Shown: one piece after another, positions 30,517-39,363 of the stretch
Numbering within the stretch: the first letter of the stretch is position 1
How the letters are laid out: each line of letters opens with the position of its first letter
Source of the DNA: Frankia sp. R82
GTDB lineage: Bacteria; Actinomycetota; Actinomycetes; Frankiales; Frankiaceae
Reading direction: 5' to 3'
Length of the DNA stretch: 45,890 nt
Assembly (NCBI RefSeq): GCF_023716925.1
Contig: NZ_JAMQQG010000011.1
Location: 1 to 45,890, forward strand
Notes under the pieces: generated by a model
What the model saw: the letters and a program-made list of their open reading frames with translations, nothing else
Databases searched by the model: none
Told to the model about the DNA's origin: nothing
Made by a program: the position numbers and the translations under genes

Positions 30517-30827
30517 CGGATTCCAGCCGCGTCGCGCGGGTGGCGGCTCGTTCCGGCCGGTTCCCCCGTCCTCCGATTGGTTCTCCCCAGCTCTCGCCGG
30601 CATTCCTGGGTCGATGCGCGAGGATGCTATAGTTCCCGGGAAATCCGTTGTTCTTCCGCGTTTCGGACACGGATCGGGGGGCCCGTGTTCCATCAGTGCC
30701 GAACTTCGCCGTGGCCGTTGGCATGCCGCTGGCGGAGCTTCGACGGATCAGTGAGCCGGCCGGCTCCGGCCAGGCCCGGAGCGCGGGTCGAGGCGTTTTC
30801 TGGTGCTGGCGCCAGCGCGAGGCTGGC
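30517..30827 (+). other. Long leader region of the kinase-Hsp70 unit
   Basis: 311 bp before the kinase start. It holds an extended -10 candidate (listed separately) and, at 30665-30690, a hairpin with ACACGG/CCGTGT arms and a 10-nt G-rich loop. If transcription starts near 30640 the 5' leader is about 190 nt, unusually long here, so leader-level control is possible. The frame is open through this region, but an N-terminal extension would bear no relation to kinases. Confidence 0.4.
30628..30633 (+). promoter_or_regulatory. Extended -10 promoter candidate (TGC-TATAGT)
   Basis: TATAGT preceded by TGC forms an extended -10 element, in an otherwise GC-rich stretch. No good -35 hexamer is seen 16-18 nt upstream. 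It is the best promoter candidate for the kinase-Hsp70-coiled-coil unit. Confidence 0.35.
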
Positions 30828-31754
30828 ATGAGGGGCGGGTACGGGCTCGGCCCCTACGATCCGCGGTGGATCGGGCCGTACCGCGTCGACGGCCTGCTCG
30901 GCCAGGGCGGTATGGGCCGCGTCTATCTCGGACGTGATCCGGTGGACCGGCCGGTCGCCATCAAGGTGATCAAAGACGACCTCGCCGGAAACGCGGAGTA
31001 CCTGCGGCGTTTCCGCGAGGAGGCAGCCAACGCGCGGCGCATCGCCCGCCAGCACACCGCCCAGGTGCTCGACTTCAACGTCGACCGCGGTTCGCCCTAT
31101 CTGGTGACCGAGTACGTCGAAGGTCCGACGCTACGTGACCGGATTCGCCACGGCCGGCCGATCGTCGGCTCCGAACTCGACCAGCTCGCCTTCGTGCTGG
31201 CCACTGCGCTGCAGGCGATGCACCAGGTCGGGCTGATCCACCGCGATCTCAAACCGGAGAACGTCATCCTGTCGTCGATGGGCCCACGCGTCATCGACTT
31301 CGGGGTGGCCCGGGTCTCGGACGGCCCGCATGAACCGGACCGGAACTCGACCTTCGTCGGCACCCTCGGGTACATCGCCCCCGAGATCCTGGCGAGCAGA
31401 CCCGCGACGGCGAAGGTCGACATCTTCGCCTGGGGGGCGACGGTCGCCTTCGCCGGTACCGGTCGGCCGACGTTCGGCGACGGAAACATCGAACAGCGCC
31501 GGTACCGCACCCTTGGGCAGGCTCCGGACCTCAGCGGACTCGAACTGCCGCTGCGGGACGTGGTCGATCGTGCCCTGCACAAGTCGCCGGCGATGCGTCC
31601 GTCCGCAGCCGATCTGGTCCGGGTGCTCAACGGTGGCGCGGCGCTGGGCGCCGGGACGGACGAGCTGTCGGCCGGCCTCGACGGTGAACTGCCACCGCGC
31701 CCGGAACGTGAGCTCACCCTGGAGCAGGAAATTCTTCGCAGAATGGGGATGTAG
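30828..31754 (+). CDS. Soluble Ser/Thr protein kinase (Hanks type) linked to an Hsp70
   Basis: 308 residues from ATG 30828 (GAGG 6 nt upstream). All kinase elements are present: Gly loop GQGGMG (25-30), catalytic Lys46 in VAIK, HRDLKPEN (138-145), DFG (157-159), APE (184-186). The sequence is intact and should be active. Unlike PknB-type kinases there is no membrane helix or PASTA domain after the catalytic domain; only about 40 residues follow the fold, with an acidic helix at the very end (TLEQEILRRMGM). The segment around residue 175, before APE, holds Ser/Thr for activation-loop autophosphorylation. The stop TAG is directly followed by the GTG of the Hsp70-like gene (0 nt), which argues for coupled translation and a common role. 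The chaperone-like protein or the third gene product are plausible substrates; this is inference. Confidence 0.9.
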   Translation: MRGGYGLGPYDPRWIGPYRVDGLLGQGGMGRVYLGRDPVDRPVAIKVIKDDLAGNAEYLRRFREEAANARRIARQHTAQVLDFNVDRGSPYLVTEYVEGPTLRDRIRHGRPIVGSELDQLAFVLATALQAMHQVGLIHRDLKPENVILSSMGPRVIDFGVARVSDGPHEPDRNSTFVGTLGYIAPEILASRPATAKVDIFAWGATVAFAGTGRPTFGDGNIEQRRYRTLGQAPDLSGLELPLRDVVDRALHKSPAMRPSAADLVRVLNGGAALGAGTDELSAGLDGELPPRPERELTLEQEILRRMGM

Positions 31755-33626
31755 GTGCACGGAGCAGCGCCGTCGATCGTCGCCGCCGTTGATTTCGGCA
31801 CCTTTGGCTCCGGCTATGCCTGGGCGTTGAAGAATCCGGCCGGCACCTACATCCCGAGCCATGACATCAACTGCAACGACCAGTGGAAGGGTGCGGATTC
31901 CGGATATCCCAAGAATCGCAGCGCGATTCTGCTGGGCGACCAGGGCGAGACCCTGGCCTGGGGCTACGAGGCGCTCAACCGTTACACCGACGGGGGCGAG
32001 CAGGCGGGCGGCTTCGCCGTCGACTTCAAGATGCGGCTTGCCTCCGGCGACGGTCCGGGCGCGGGGCCGGGCACAGCTCCGCAGGCGGGGTCGGGCAGTG
32101 GTCCGGGTGGTCGGCCCGGGAGTGGTCCGGGGAGTACCCCGAGCCAGGCCGAGGGCGGTCGCAACGAGACCGGCCGGTCGACCGAGCATCTCATTGCGGC
32201 CTATCTGCGCGAGCTCCACACCGTCGCCCGTCAGCACATTCTGCGGGCCGGGTACGGTGATCTGCCGATTTCCTGGTACCTCAGCGTGCCTGCCATCTGG
32301 AGTGACTTCGACCGGCAGGTCATGCGCCGGGCCGCGATGGCGGCCGGTCTCCCCGCCGACCCGTACCGGTTGTCGATCGTTCTTGAACCGGAGGCGGCCG
32401 CGCTGTACTGCATGGCCAGCGAGGCCCGCGCCGGCGGTTTCGGCCCGGCCGGCCCGGTCGGTGTGCCCGGTCCGGCCCAGGTCGCCGGGCTGGGCACACC
32501 GCGGCACCGGCCGGGCTCCCGGTTCGTCATCGTCGACTGCGGTGGCGGCACCACCGACCTCGTCCCACTGACGATGCGTTCCGACGGCACCTTCGACCAG
32601 ATCGGCGTGGCCACCGGGGACACGTCCGGGGCGAACCGGGTCACCCGGCAGTTCACCGTGTCCGTGCTGGCCGAGCGGCTGGGCCGCCCGACACTGCTGC
32701 ACCTGGTGAAGGCGGAACCGAAGGCCGTCAACGAGCTGATGCGGGCCTGGGAGAAGGCCCGCGACGTCTTCGACCCCGCGCAGCGCACCCCCCTGCGGAT
32801 CGAGCTGTCCATGCGGCTGTGGAAGGCGCTTCCCGGGTCGGCCCGCGCACAGCTCGCCGCCACGCAGAACGGTGAGAACGAGGCGATCCTGCTGTCCGCG
32901 GCCCAAACCCGGGCCCTGCTCGACACGTCGGTCGACCCGATCTGCGCCCTGGTGGACGAGCAGCTGCACCGGATCGCCGAGCAGGCCAGCACGCGCGGGC
33001 CGGGCGATCCGGACGAGCCGACCGCGGTCTGTCTCGTCGGGGGATTCGCCAACTCGCGGTACCTGCAGCAGCGGCTCGCCACGGTGGTCGAGGGACGGGC
33101 CCGGCTGTTCGTGCCACCGCGACCGGAGAACGCCGTCCTGTTCGGCGCGGTGCAGTACGGCAACAACCCGGCGCGGATCCGTTCCCGCACAGCCGCGCGG
33201 ACCTACGGCTACGGTCTGCTGGACGCGTTCGATCCCGCCCTTGATCCTCCCGAGCGGTTGTACCTCAACGCGGAGAAGAAGGCCCTGTGCAAGGGGCGGT
33301 TCCGCGTCCTGGTCCGACGTGGAGAGATCATTCCGGTCGGGAGTGAGAAAACCTCACGGGTCTATCCCCGCGAGGGGAACCAGACCCGGATGAAGCTGTC
33401 GTTCTTCTCCTCGGACGAGGACGATCCGCGCTACGTCGACGATGGCCGGGTGAGCGAGGTCGGCTTCGTGACCATCTTCCTGCCCGACGTCGGGAACCGG
33501 CGGTACACCGCCCGGGAACGCGCCATCGATGTCAGGACGATCTTCGGTGAGACGGTGATCCGGGTGCAGGCGGTCGATCTCGCCACCGGTTACCAGACCG
33601 ATGCGGAGATCGAGTTCACCGCATGA
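31755..33626 (+). CDS. HSPA12-like divergent Hsp70 (actin-ATPase fold)
   Basis: 623 residues from GTG 31755. Phosphate-1 loop AVDFGTFGSGYAWAL (11-25), LSVPAIWSDFDRQVMRRAA (176-194), LEPEAAALYCM (210-220), phosphate-2 loop VIVDCGGGTTDLV (258-270) and adenosine loop VCLVGGFANSRYLQQRL follow the Hsp70/actin plan. The FGTFGSGYA form, the Trp-containing segment and the C-terminal YGYGLLDAFDP...RFRVLVRRGEIIPVGS block match the animal HSPA12A/B branch and its bacterial relatives, not DnaK. Two insertions are visible: a Gly/Pro-rich loop at 97-140 and a smaller one at 225-255. The C-terminus (about 480-623) is a beta-rich domain without the DnaK helical lid or its EEVD-like tail. Third-gene ATG overlaps the stop. 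Chaperone, sensor or scaffold roles are all open; no DnaJ is nearby. Confidence 0.88.
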   Translation: MHGAAPSIVAAVDFGTFGSGYAWALKNPAGTYIPSHDINCNDQWKGADSGYPKNRSAILLGDQGETLAWGYEALNRYTDGGEQAGGFAVDFKMRLASGDGPGAGPGTAPQAGSGSGPGGRPGSGPGSTPSQAEGGRNETGRSTEHLIAAYLRELHTVARQHILRAGYGDLPISWYLSVPAIWSDFDRQVMRRAAMAAGLPADPYRLSIVLEPEAAALYCMASEARAGGFGPAGPVGVPGPAQVAGLGTPRHRPGSRFVIVDCGGGTTDLVPLTMRSDGTFDQIGVATGDTSGANRVTRQFTVSVLAERLGRPTLLHLVKAEPKAVNELMRAWEKARDVFDPAQRTPLRIELSMRLWKALPGSARAQLAATQNGENEAILLSAAQTRALLDTSVDPICALVDEQLHRIAEQASTRGPGDPDEPTAVCLVGGFANSRYLQQRLATVVEGRARLFVPPRPENAVLFGAVQYGNNPARIRSRTAARTYGYGLLDAFDPALDPPERLYLNAEKKALCKGRFRVLVRRGEIIPVGSEKTSRVYPREGNQTRMKLSFFSSDEDDPRYVDDGRVSEVGFVTIFLPDVGNRRYTARERAIDVRTIFGETVIRVQAVDLATGYQTDAEIEFTA

Positions 33627-34576
33627 CGGCGTCGGTGTTGCGGCAGCGGGCGGTGACGTCGGCGGGAAGGAGATGCGGTGCGGGCCGCGGTGGCGGAAAG
33701 GAGCAGCGGATCATCGTGAGGATCTTCCGGGCCGCGGACTCTCTTCCGGCCGCGGATCCGGTGGTGGATCCGGCGGCTGGTCCGGCGGTGGCTGATCCGC
33801 GCCTCGAGGCGGTGCTGGGCGACGTGGCGCCCGGCACGGTGGATGGTGCGGCCGTTCCTGCCTCGGTCGGCGCGGACATCGTCCGCCTGCAGGCGTACTT
33901 CGAGGCGATCCGGGACGATCTGGGCGCCCGCCTGCTGGCCGCCGAGGCGCAGATCCGGGACCTGCGCGTTCGGGTGGCCGAGCTGGAACGCTTCCGGGGC
34001 CCGGCCGATGCCGCCGCCGCGACGATCGGGGCCTCGACGGCGCGCCATGACGAGTACCGCGCGATCGCGTCCCGGGTGGAGGGCCTGCTCGACCAGCAGA
34101 TCACCTACCTGGCGACCCGCGGTGGACGGGCGACCCCGGACGCGGCCCGGCTGGCCCGCCGCCTCGCTGACGTGCTGTTCACCGGCCCGGCGCCGGACGT
34201 CGAAACCGTCCGTGACGGGCTGCGGCAGCTTGTCGCGGACGCTGTGGTGGATCCGACCATGCCGGCTGGTGGCGGTGTTGTCGATGCCGGTGCCGTCGAG
34301 ACGGAAACCGCCGCGGCCGTCGCGGCTGTCACGGCCGGTGCGGAGATCGGCCGGCTGCGTGACGCCGCCGTGCAGGGCGGACTCCCGCATCAGTGGACCT
34401 TTGAGGCCGCTCTCGGCGGACCGCTCGACGAGAGCCGGCAGCGGACCTTCGGCCTGTGCGACCCGGATCATCGTGTCGATCTGGTCGTCTTCCCCGCACT
34501 CGTGGTGGACGGCGTCATCATGATGCGCCAACGCGTCCATACCGCAGCCCGGGTCACGCCCGTTCGGACCGGGTGA
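33623..34576 (+). CDS. Coiled-coil protein, third gene of the kinase-Hsp70 unit
   Basis: 317 residues from ATG 33623, overlapping the Hsp70 stop by 4 nt (ATGA). GTG 33716, with GGAG 12 nt upstream, is a second option and would remove a basic, low-complexity leader. Residues about 75-130 (IVRLQAYFEAIRDDLGARLLAAEAQIRDLRVRVAELERF) form a clear coiled coil; helices follow (LLDQQITYLATRGG). The C-terminal 60 residues (HQWTFEAALGGPLDESRQRTFGLCDPDHRVDLVVFPALVV) look like a small alpha/beta domain. No family recognised. A coiled coil beside an Hsp70 recalls GrpE-type exchange factors, but no GrpE motif is seen, so this is only a hypothesis. Position and coupling make it the expected partner of the Hsp70. 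Confidence 0.75.
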   Translation: MTASVLRQRAVTSAGRRCGAGRGGGKEQRIIVRIFRAADSLPAADPVVDPAAGPAVADPRLEAVLGDVAPGTVDGAAVPASVGADIVRLQAYFEAIRDDLGARLLAAEAQIRDLRVRVAELERFRGPADAAAATIGASTARHDEYRAIASRVEGLLDQQITYLATRGGRATPDAARLARRLADVLFTGPAPDVETVRDGLRQLVADAVVDPTMPAGGGVVDAGAVETETAAAVAAVTAGAEIGRLRDAAVQGGLPHQWTFEAALGGPLDESRQRTFGLCDPDHRVDLVVFPALVVDGVIMMRQRVHTAARVTPVRTG

Positions 34577-34603: not shown

Positions 34604-34828
34604 AGCAGCCCGCGTCTGGTCCCCTGCCTGGCGGCTGGCGGCTGGCGCAGCGGCTAGTAGCGGACGGTGCTGGCCAGCAGCGGTGGGTAGACGGTGGACG
34701 GTTCACCGTGGTGCCGGCGAAGATCGGCACAACCGTGCCCGTGGTGGCGCTGCGGCGGTACTTGCCAGAGAGAAAGCTGCACGCGCCGGCAGCGGGCCGA
34801 GACACGTCCTGCGTGGCAGCGTCGACAT

Positions 34829-35201
34829 CGACGGCGGACTCGCCCAGGTCAGCCGAGCGATCCGCTGGATCCGCGAGCACTACGCCGAACCGTTGCGGAT
34901 CGCCGACCTCGCCCAGCTCGCCGGCCTGAGCCCGTCCGCCTTCCACCGCCGCTTCCGCGAGATCACCGCGCTCAGCCCGTTGCAGTTCCAGAAGCGCATT
35001 CGGCTGTAGCAGGCCCGCACTCTGCTGGTCGCCGGCCCGGCAGACATCGCCGGCGTCGGCCACCTCGTCGGCTACGACAACCCCACCCAGGTCAACCGCG
35101 AATACCGCCGCCTGTCCGGCGCCCCACCCGGCCGCGACGCCACCCGCCTGCGCGCCGACCCCGAGACCCAGCTCCTCGACCCGGCTCGTCACCTGCCGTG
35201 A
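34829..35201 (+). pseudogene. AraC-family regulator remnant with internal stop
   Basis: Only the C-terminal DNA-binding region is recognisable: SRAIRWIREHYAEPLRIADLAQLAGLSPSAFHRRFREITA is the first AraC helix-turn-helix, then a TAG at 35007-35009 interrupts LQFQKRIRL and QARTLLVAG, and VGYDNPTQVNREYRRLSGAPPGRDATRLR is the second helix-turn-helix in the same frame. A one-base change (CAG to TAG, as Gln is usual near this point) could account for the stop. The N-terminal cupin-like ligand domain is missing; bases 34604-34828 hold nothing recognisable. The end overlaps the convergent HxlR gene by 13 bp. A functional protein is unlikely unless the stop is read through. Confidence 0.8.
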
Positions 35202-37395: not shown

Positions 37396-37432
37396 CAGTG
37401 CCCCTGTGGTGGCTTCAGTGCCCCTGCGGTGG
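37396..37432. repeat. 17-bp direct repeat at the 3' end of the RloB-like gene
   Basis: CAGTGCCCCTGTGGTGG (37396-37412) and CAGTGCCCCTGCGGTGG (37416-37432) differ at one base, with a 20-bp period. The second copy is the last codons and stop of the RloB-like gene; the first would extend it if read through. A short duplication at the border of the defence module. Confidence 0.7.
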
Positions 37433-38071
37433 AGAAGGTCCGAGCTCGCCCGCACCCGGCTGATGGTCGATGGCCATGAGCAGATCAGTCATGGATGACG
37501 ATGGATTGTTGCTGGGAAAAACTGCGTTGTCTCGCTTGTGCTGGGCGTCGAGAGCGCGGGCGTTGGCGATGGCCGTCGCCCGTAACGGCATGTACTTCGC
37601 GGCATCGATCCCTTTTCCGGCCCGGCCGTCCAGGCGTTTGCTGTGGCGCTCGACATCGTCGGTGCTCGCGAAGCGGGTGTATCTTTCGAAGTGGAGGATC
37701 AACCACAGTTCGAAACAGGGGTTGGAGATGGCGACTCTGATCTTCGGGCGCTGGCGTGCTAGGTTGACCGCCTGCTTCAGGTACGGGTGGTTGTTCGGCC
37801 ACTCCACATCGAAGACGCACCGGCACTCGTCGATCTCCTGGTCCTGGCTGCGCTCGATCGCCCGCTGGACCAGTTTCAGCGGGACTCCACGCTCGGGGTC
37901 GATCTCGATGCTCACTGCCGAATTGGCGGCCACATGAGGTAGCTTTTTTATACCGTTGATGTAGTCGGGTTCGGAGAGCTTGCCCTCGCAGAAGATGACA
38001 AAGGTCTTCTTCTCGGGCCGCACCTGTGTTTTTCGTTTGAGGGGGCTGGAGCCCACTCTTCTCGGGGCCAC
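37415..38071 (-). CDS. RloB-family protein (AbiLii/RloB-like, defence)
   Basis: 218 residues from GTG 38069-38071, 5 nt after the stop of the AAA ATPase. The N-terminal FVIFCEGKLSEPDYINGI (residues 24-41), CVFDVEWP near 85-92 and SNPCFELWLILHF at 116-128 are the RloB-family signature. The EG...EpxY and FDxE blocks resemble the Glu and Asp-x-Asp of a Toprim-like fold, giving a possible metal-dependent nuclease. RloB with an OLD-like ATPase makes up AbiL-type systems, which stop phage growth by abortive infection. Codon use is less GC-extreme than that of the neighbours, as expected for transferred defence genes. The role is inferred from family and partner. Confidence 0.85.
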   Translation of the reverse strand: MAPRRVGSSPLKRKTQVRPEKKTFVIFCEGKLSEPDYINGIKKLPHVAANSAVSIEIDPERGVPLKLVQRAIERSQDQEIDECRCVFDVEWPNNHPYLKQAVNLARQRPKIRVAISNPCFELWLILHFERYTRFASTDDVERHSKRLDGRAGKGIDAAKYMPLRATAIANARALDAQHKRDNAVFPSNNPSSSMTDLLMAIDHQPGAGELGPSPPQGH

Positions 38072-38076
38072 CGAGG

Positions 38077-39363
38077 CTATCCAATGCGCCGAAGCGAACG
38101 GAGGAGATCGGTCTGGTTGACGTCCGGCACGGCGCCGAATCTGCCGTGCAGGTAGGCGCGCTCGAGGTTCTGGGACGTGCGAACCCGCTCGCCGGCGAAC
38201 TCGGCAAGCGCGCCCAGCCGGGTCGCTCCCGCCCTGGTCTTCTCGGTGAACCAGACCTCGTCCCGGTTGAGGTGGTTGAGGAGGCTGGTGTTGTGGGCCG
38301 CGAAGATGAGCTGGGCGCCCCTCGGGTTCGTGGCGCGCTCGTGGAAGAGCCTGATCAGTTGTGCTGTCAGGGTCGGGTGCAGGCTTGCGTCCAGTTCGTC
38401 GAAGAGGAGGGTCGTGCCGGCCTGAAGCGCGACCAGTACGGGCCCGATCAGATCGAACCAGATCTGGGTGCCCTGGCTCTCGGCGATGAAGTCGAGCGGG
38501 ATCTGCTCTTCCTCGGCCTCGTGGACGAGGCGGACCCCGCGCATTAGCCGCACGGAGCCGGGGTCACCCGCTCTTGGCACCTCGTCCTCGTCGATGAGAA
38601 CGTCGACTATGCCCATGTCCGCCATTCTAAGCAGAGCCAGCGCCAGATCTCGATCAGGGGTCGGCAGGTCTGTCTCGTCGAAGAGCGCGGGCTGTGTGGC
38701 GGTGGCCTGGTTGTCAAACCAGCGAATCGAGGATCGGGCTGCCGGCAGGTACCGGCCGCTGGTCCGTCCGAGCCGGGATCGCCGGGGCATGCCGAATGTC
38801 TGCGCCCGCGTCAGGGTTCGGACAAAGTCGGACACGAGAGGCTCTTTGAAACGAGCTGCCACGGAGAGCGCGAGCGTTGCCTCGGTGAGCAGCTCGCGAG
38901 TGCCCGACAGACCACCCAGGCCACGCTGCAACTTGAGTTCGGAACCTTCACGTTCGAAGATTCTGCGACGCTTCTTTTCGGGGTAGTGAAAAAGTCCTTC
39001 GTAGTAGACCATGGTCCGGTCAAGCTGCAGTACGTACTCGAATCTGACGCCACCGACGAGCAGGTCGACAGTGAACTCCGAGGGTGTGTCCGGGCCGTTT
39101 CCAAAGGCGTGGGATTCGATGGGTATATCGCGGTCCCACAGTCTGAGCGAGTGCTGGACCGCGTCACGAAGCCAGGTGAAGGCGGCGATGACGTTGGATT
39201 TTCCGGACGCGTTCGGCCCGAATATTGCGGCCACGGTCAGCAGACTCTCGCCGAGTAGCTCGGCGGGGCGCACCTCGTCGCGATCCTGGTCTACCGCGAT
39301 CATGGACAGCTCGGCTGTACTGAGGATCGATCGGAAGTTCGTCACCTGAAAGCGGATCAGCAT
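38077..39363 (-). CDS. OLD/RloA-like AAA ATPase (AbiLi-type)
   Basis: 428 residues from ATG 39361-39363. MLIRFQVTNFRSI begins like SMC/OLD-type ATPases; Walker A GPNASGKS (49-56), a diverged middle, GTTLLFDELDASLHP as signature/Walker B and FAAHNTSLLN with the switch His. No Toprim domain at the C-terminus, so the nuclease-type partner is supplied by the RloB-like gene 5 nt downstream. In AbiL, PARIS and Gabija-like systems such ATPases sense phage products and release or activate a toxic partner. The predicted ABC-like ATP sites seem complete. The upstream region has no repeats that would flag a mobile element. Confidence 0.87.
   Translation of the reverse strand: MLIRFQVTNFRSILSTAELSMIAVDQDRDEVRPAELLGESLLTVAAIFGPNASGKSNVIAAFTWLRDAVQHSLRLWDRDIPIESHAFGNGPDTPSEFTVDLLVGGVRFEYVLQLDRTMVYYEGLFHYPEKKRRRIFEREGSELKLQRGLGGLSGTRELLTEATLALSVAARFKEPLVSDFVRTLTRAQTFGMPRRSRLGRTSGRYLPAARSSIRWFDNQATATQPALFDETDLPTPDRDLALALLRMADMGIVDVLIDEDEVPRAGDPGSVRLMRGVRLVHEAEEEQIPLDFIAESQGTQIWFDLIGPVLVALQAGTTLLFDELDASLHPTLTAQLIRLFHERATNPRGAQLIFAAHNTSLLNHLNRDEVWFTEKTRAGATRLGALAEFAGERVRTSQNLERAYLHGRFGAVPDVNQTDLLRSLRRIG

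Follow-up and report, generated by a model that had tools for sequence, protein, structure and literature searches.

The mechanisms of non-canonical Hsp70s such as HSPA12 are poorly understood. HSPA12A and HSPA12B have a long insert in the region matching the segment between the EPEAA and DCGGG motifs of the protein studied here, according to one report (PMC2266713). In the DO-GTPase/GAP1-N2 conflict systems, actinobacterial Hsp70s adjoin signalling genes, and one version of the Hsp70 lacks the peptide-binding domain; these systems have GTPase and GAP1 genes together with GrpE and DnaJ (Kaur et al. 2020, PMC7159879). In this study, a locus of Frankia sp. R82 was compared with such systems. It lies at 30828-34576 on the plus strand of a 45,890-nucleotide stretch of contig NZ_JAMQQG010000011.1 (hereafter the window), and, as an earlier note on this DNA had read it, holds a kinase gene, an Hsp70-family gene and a third gene, here called the partner. 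The conserved core of the locus is the Hsp70 and its partner, not the triad. Our tentative reading, to which we give somewhat less than an even chance, is that the locus encodes an accessory signalling/chaperone module in which an ATP-driven Hsp70-type switch has its own partner and is coupled in Frankia to the kinase. The three genes are as follows.

30828..31754, plus strand: Ser/Thr protein kinase gene, 308 amino acids, soluble, identified by its Pkinase match, motifs, hydropathy and relatives in loci L029, L030 and L032
31755..33626, plus strand: Hsp70-family ATPase gene, 623 amino acids, divergent, lid not detected, identified by Pfam HSP70 and a family profile
33716..34576, plus strand: partner gene, 286 amino acids from a conserved GTG (317 from the ATG at 33623), predicted to encode a coiled-coil protein whose C-terminal region is conserved

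An Hsp70 gene and its adjoining partner

Thirty-three loci with this Hsp70 were read (the window, L028-L032, L033-L037, L056-L071 and L079-L084). The partner is the next gene 3' of the Hsp70 gene in 29 of them. Of the 30 testable loci whose Hsp70 is intact, 28 have the partner next and in the same orientation, a count that omits L032, which ends inside the Hsp70 gene, and the broken-Hsp70 loci L071 and L084. Among 72,556 plasmid records, separate searches with the Hsp70 and with the partner gave the same eight Streptomyces plasmids, and the two genes adjoin in each; either search also gave one record with a second matching place. The two proteins diverge together as well. Over 26 loci, the Mantel correlation of Hsp70 with partner distances was r 0.89, and none of 5000 label permutations was as high, although the permutation test ignores shared ancestry; the correlation drops to r 0.59 over the 299 pairs at <50% Hsp70 identity. 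The earlier note had named rare co-occurrence of its genes elsewhere as a ground for rejecting its reading. For the Hsp70 and the partner this ground fails, and co-occurrence, shared plasmids and co-divergence mark them as a conserved pair.

The spacing of the genes was partly as first described. No nucleotide separates the kinase TAG from the Hsp70 GTG, and the Hsp70 TGA does overlap an ATG (ATGA) at 33623; that ATG is probably not the partner start, as had been assumed. The partner of Frankia AiPa1 starts 31 nucleotides past its Hsp70 and lacks the first 31 residues of the version that begins at ATG 33623, and the common partner N-terminus, VRIFRAAD, starts in the window at GTG 33716, preceded by AAAGGAG. 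Thus, translation probably starts at GTG 33716, and the gap between Hsp70 and partner is probably 89 nucleotides rather than -4. In all three genes nonsynonymous divergence (dN) from the AiPa1 copies is below synonymous divergence (dS), with NG86 values of 0.110/0.513, 0.132/0.439 and 0.308/0.778.

Two side observations concern the neighbourhood of the pair. At L071:5922-7129 (minus strand), the Hsp70 lies in two reading frames, the partner was not found, and genes that look transposase-like by eye stand beside it. Directly 3' of the unit in the window, 34700-35160 (plus strand) holds, likewise by eye, a pseudogene-like fragment of an AraC-type regulator with an in-frame TAG near 35007.

Identity of the Hsp70 and the partner protein

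By itself, the Hsp70 passes the Pfam HSP70 model (PF00012) marginally, at 20.7 bits against a cut-off of 20.6; its family profile matches the solved DnaK chain 1dkg_D with an E-value of 3e-16. Judged from these profile matches, its Hsp70 identity is real. The FGTFGSGYA loop (residue 14) and the DCGGGTTD loop (residue 261), which had been taken as signs of the animal HSPA12 branch, are both present. The ATPase residues D13, G15, T16, E211, D261, GGGT263-266 and GG429-430 are conserved in 26 of 26 Hsp70s and K92 in 25 of 26; we take these positions to correspond to Hsc70 residues. The segment from EPEAA to DCGGG spans 50 residues in the window's protein and 28-50 in those 23 of the 26 proteins that showed both motifs. 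An AlphaFold2 model built from four sequences (mean predicted local distance difference test score, pLDDT, 49.8) has an all-beta C-terminal end and no visible lid, but is too poor to confirm that the lid is absent, as the earlier note had held. Its top Foldseek matches, at a TM score of about 0.3, are Hsp70s of two domains, some of them truncated at the lid. The part concerned is:

33345..33617, plus strand: C-terminal part of the Hsp70, about residues 531-621, all-beta in the secondary structure of the low-confidence AlphaFold2 model

This part presumably resembles HSPA12A. No HSPA12 chain was found among the 60 listed of 118 PDB sequence matches to the Hsp70 family profile. The loops and the presumed resemblance make the protein possibly of HSPA12 type.

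The partner was described earlier as a coiled coil of unknown type, and it does belong to no assigned family: no Pfam, NCBIfam or PADLOC family matches at E 1. Coiled-coil and designed helical proteins are among the 60 listed of 98 matches of its profile to solved structures. Its AlphaFold2 model, from three sequences, shows long helices and short C-terminal strands at very low confidence (pLDDT 40.1). Models this weak are insufficient for interface claims.

The pair could instead be a folding chaperone dedicated to a single client; the partner would then be a GrpE analogue, and the kinase would feed in stress signals. The Hsp70 fold with its predicted beta-type C-terminal part would suit this, and the partner model, for all its very low confidence, recalls the layout that we take GrpE to have. 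A GrpE relationship by descent, which would have made the partner the co-factor that the earlier note thought missing, was rejected: Pfam gives no match at E 1 to GrpE (PF01025) or any other family, and hhalign against the genome's own GrpE returned a probability of 1.2%. As had been noted, neither DnaJ nor GrpE is nearby; the three DnaJ and two GrpE family matches of the genome all lie off the window's contig, on which no J-domain match was found. The DnaK-DnaJ-GrpE operon arrangement, with those genes beside the Hsp70, is therefore not present. Furthermore, among the neighbours listed, none recurs next to the pair in every clade. A folding chaperone of this kind appears improbable.

Clade-specific genes, distribution and genomic context

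The kinase matches Pfam Pkinase over profile positions 1-258 of 263 (E 3.8e-41) and has the motifs GQGGMG, VAIK, HRDLKPEN, DFG and APE. Its highest 19-residue Kyte-Doolittle hydropathy window averages just 1.34, so a membrane span is not expected; the protein is complete and soluble, as it had been described. An in-frame TTG at 30648 is a possible alternative start. Two features of this gene and its upstream region are conserved.

30622..30694, plus strand: upstream block, likely the promoter or leader of the unit, with TATAGT and the palindrome TTCCCGGGAA, conserved in three Frankia loci
31713..31751, plus strand: C-terminal tail of the kinase, a candidate docking helix, LTLEQEILRRMGM, conserved

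The tail motif E..ILRR.G is kept in all three aligned full kinases, beyond a poorly conserved linker, and the tail might be a docking site for the Hsp70 or the partner. The upstream block is nearly identical in the window, L029 and L032 and is flanked by diverged DNA. It contains a -10-like TATAGT at 30628-30633, and its first 24 nucleotides occur once in the genome with up to three mismatches allowed; a sigma-70 consensus scan of the upstream region gave no match. The conservation of the block in three Frankia loci and its unique core are consistent with one promoter for three genes, from which kinase, Hsp70 and partner would be co-transcribed.

The kinase lies upstream of the Hsp70 in four of the five loci of the window's family (the window, L029, L030 and L032, where it is split across two frames). 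A kinase search of 35 genomes at E 1e-75 gave five matches, namely these four and a longer protein in genome G017 (48% identity). The nearest relatives of the kinase thus occupy the same locus; its place in a unit of general occurrence did not hold, since kinase-profile matches occur in just 5 of the 33 loci, in one of them (L070) downstream of the pair. The 28 loci without such a match would also be expected if the Frankia kinase were a neighbour functionally unlinked to the pair. This is highly improbable given that the genes abut or overlap in L029 and L030 too, that the kinases of the window and L030 are 51% identical, and that the upstream block is shared.

Three genomes of the same genus without the unit (L117, L118 and L120) show a probable empty site, where the aldo-keto reductase gene that neighbours the unit is retained along with portions of the ABC/DinB/MscS block. 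Near the same reductase gene in another such genome, L119:11572-14268 (minus strand) encodes, as seen by eye, a kinase followed by WD40-like repeats.

Other clades carry other genes beside the pair. A patatin phospholipase gene (Pfam E 1.4e-26 and 3e-23) lies 3' of the pair in L028 and L068, separated from it by the gene for one uncharacterised protein; L069 is a near-copy of L068, and its patatin is assigned by position. The L070 kinase has TPR repeats. At L065:982-11175, an operon-like row consists of genes for a kinase-like protein that scores below the Pfam cut-off, a radical-SAM protein, an unknown protein, an AAA+ protein, the Hsp70, the partner and a peptidase-M6-like protein. In 12 of the 33 loci, a small divergent gene with weak helix-turn-helix (HTH) likeness (HTH_23, E 0.025, below cut-off) lies upstream. 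Between this gene and the Hsp70 gene, operator-like repeats near YTGTGCANNNTTGCACA were seen at L033:7761-7798 and L057:5773-5943. On a tree of 29 Hsp70s, in which L031 groups with L065, the kinase-upstream, patatin and HTH labels need one change each, against shuffled means of 2.9, 2.9 and 6.4; ten unlabelled rows were left out of this test. This is as expected of add-ons to a fixed core, and the kinase is one such add-on.

Across the phylum, the Hsp70 profile picked out 1 of 396 genomes (the window's own alone); it also picked out 16 of 392 in the genus to which G051 belongs (taken for Streptomyces) and 6 of 200 in the Actinosynnema family. Within Frankia, it was found in 3 of 13 genomes (G000, which holds the window, G004 and G006), with one weak match in G011 excluded; among 58 relatives, 12 match the Hsp70 at E 0.001, five of them strongly (G000, G004, G006, G016 and G021). 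The profile searches scored three or six candidates per genome, so these frequencies are lower bounds. The Hsp70 family is rare and an accessory module.

Only 5 of the 33 loci are on named plasmids. A viral origin was rejected: two Hsp70 queries found no relative in IMG/VR, and the window's Hsp70 had no match in 50,697 phage records. A plasmid Hsp70 query gave ten phage records, each matching across roughly half its length; those with an annotation are labelled DnaK.

Four loci have defence-like neighbours. The window has an AbiLii/AbiLi-like pair at 37415-39363 (minus strand; PADLOC E 1.2e-22 and 2.4e-87), which is 2.8 kb away from the unit and lies on the opposite strand. An IetS-like protein (PADLOC E 3.2e-38) is encoded at L084:759-3317, near the broken Hsp70 that retains its partner gene. 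An AriA/Old/GajA-like ATPase (best PADLOC E 8.6e-16) lies near the pair at L079:2971-5361 (minus strand), and an annotated Abi family protein (PD-T4-5 and AbiD models, E 6.6e-11 and 6.9e-8) near a plasmid pair at L035:6352-7074 (minus strand).

These neighbours, the sporadic distribution, the plasmid carriage and the constant core with variable enzymes (patatin in L028, L068 and L069; kinase-TPR in L070; AAA+, radical-SAM and peptidase-M6-like proteins in L065) would suit a conflict or defence system of the kind proposed elsewhere for chaperone-gated conflict systems, in which the core detects an invader and sets free the effector bound to it, be this a kinase, a patatin phospholipase or a peptidase. 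The flanking genes were compared with controls at 19 of the 33 loci (L056-L058, L060-L071, L079-L081 and L083; L079 is thus inside the test, and the window, L035 and L084 are outside it). The test took 140 of 156 called flank genes and 137 of 204 genes called elsewhere on the same contigs, and counted families, not genes, with 25 shown from each list. At E 1e-15, PADLOC families numbered 34 over the flank proteins and 31 over the controls, Jet and IetA matches included in the latter. There is no excess, and defence by guilt of association was rejected; the flank gene content gives no support to the phage-response role that the earlier note had suggested. The kinase matches the PADLOC PD-T4-6 model (E 2.2e-57) and numerous other PADLOC kinase models, mad6 included, all of them broad, and the window's Hsp70 is unmatched in the phage records. 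A defence role is possible but not supported, and we consider it unlikely. Among mobile-element families, DDE_Tnp_1, rve and Phage_integrase each match 3 of the 140 flank proteins and do not appear in the list of 25 control families, a difference that is suggestive only.

The order of an ATPase gene and a small-protein gene on the eight Streptomyces plasmids, together with the upstream repeats of L033 and L057, which look like operators, recalls an actin-like segregation pair of ATPase and DNA-binding adaptor such as ParM-ParR. The ATPase, however, is of Hsp70 type by its DnaK profile matches and predicted C-terminal beta part, Pfam matches to MreB are weak and fall short of the cut-off, and few loci are on named plasmids. 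A ParM-type iteron array was not found: repeats have at most three copies in six upstream regions and none in one, and the window has just two-copy families. Partition is disfavoured on these grounds and seems extremely improbable.

Proposed mechanism and comparison with known systems

As an accessory signalling/chaperone module, the locus might work as follows. Its core would be an ATP-hydrolysing Hsp70-type switch made of a nucleotide-binding domain and a beta-type C-terminal domain, in which no lid was found, and the partner would act with it as a client adaptor or as a nucleotide-exchange or dimerisation factor. In Frankia and a sister genus, this core would be made together with a soluble Ser/Thr kinase, which most likely would phosphorylate the Hsp70 or the partner, or be held by them until release. 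ATP state and phosphorylation would thereby be coupled, with the kinase as the Frankia output or input. Both the physical Hsp70-partner complex and the direction of regulation we infer.

Besides the ancestry that the permutation test ignores, several points weigh against this reading. Intact Hsp70s without a partner in the DNA read occur in L031 and L081, so the pairing is not strictly obligate; the partner is missing there and in L071, and a refined partner profile adds nothing in L031, L032, L071 or L081. L031, the fifth locus of the window's family, has neither kinase nor partner. Near-copies (L033/L037 and L068/L069) leave fewer independent cases. Partner identity outside the window's family is 19-24% in the listed pairs, and the partner alignment is weak for this reason. 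The unlabelled L066 falls inside the patatin group of the tree, outside the label count. Both AlphaFold2 models are poor, the support is computational, and the kinase may act on something else.

A broader view, which is doubtful at this stage, takes the Hsp70, possibly of HSPA12 type, and its hitherto undescribed partner to be a portable switch driven by ATP. Each clade would have connected this switch to an enzyme of its own (kinase, patatin phospholipase, peptidase), and the Hsp70 would serve as a signalling gate and not a folding machine. No published description of the pair was found in the literature searched, a search that most subscription papers lay outside. If true, the locus would offer a small, genetically tractable system for studying how such an Hsp70 uses ATP and how a kinase couples to it, in a setting where the Hsp70 has a single dedicated partner that diverges with it and enzymes that differ between clades.

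With HSPA12A and HSPA12B, the Frankia Hsp70 has in common the two loops and the extended EPEAA-DCGGG segment. Like the Hsp70s of the DO-GTPase/GAP1-N2 systems, it is actinobacterial and adjoins a signalling gene; GTPase, GAP1, GrpE and DnaJ genes were absent from the 23 proteins Pfam-scanned singly, and the bulk Pfam scan of the flanks showed 25 of its 139 families. The Frankia protein can also be set against the canonical chaperones. It shares the ATPase motifs, family profile and two-domain layout of the DnaK/Hsp70 chaperones (PF00012), but differs from DnaK in its low identity (13-18% in the listed fold alignments), in the lid, which was not found, and in having its own partner instead of a nearby DnaJ and GrpE. 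The kinase, in turn, has a domain common to the actinobacterial Ser/Thr kinases of the AfsK/PknB type (NCBIfam SerThrKinAfsKStmc, E 1.4e-51, far below cut-off); unlike them, it is short and soluble, carries a conserved tail, and is sited at an Hsp70 locus.

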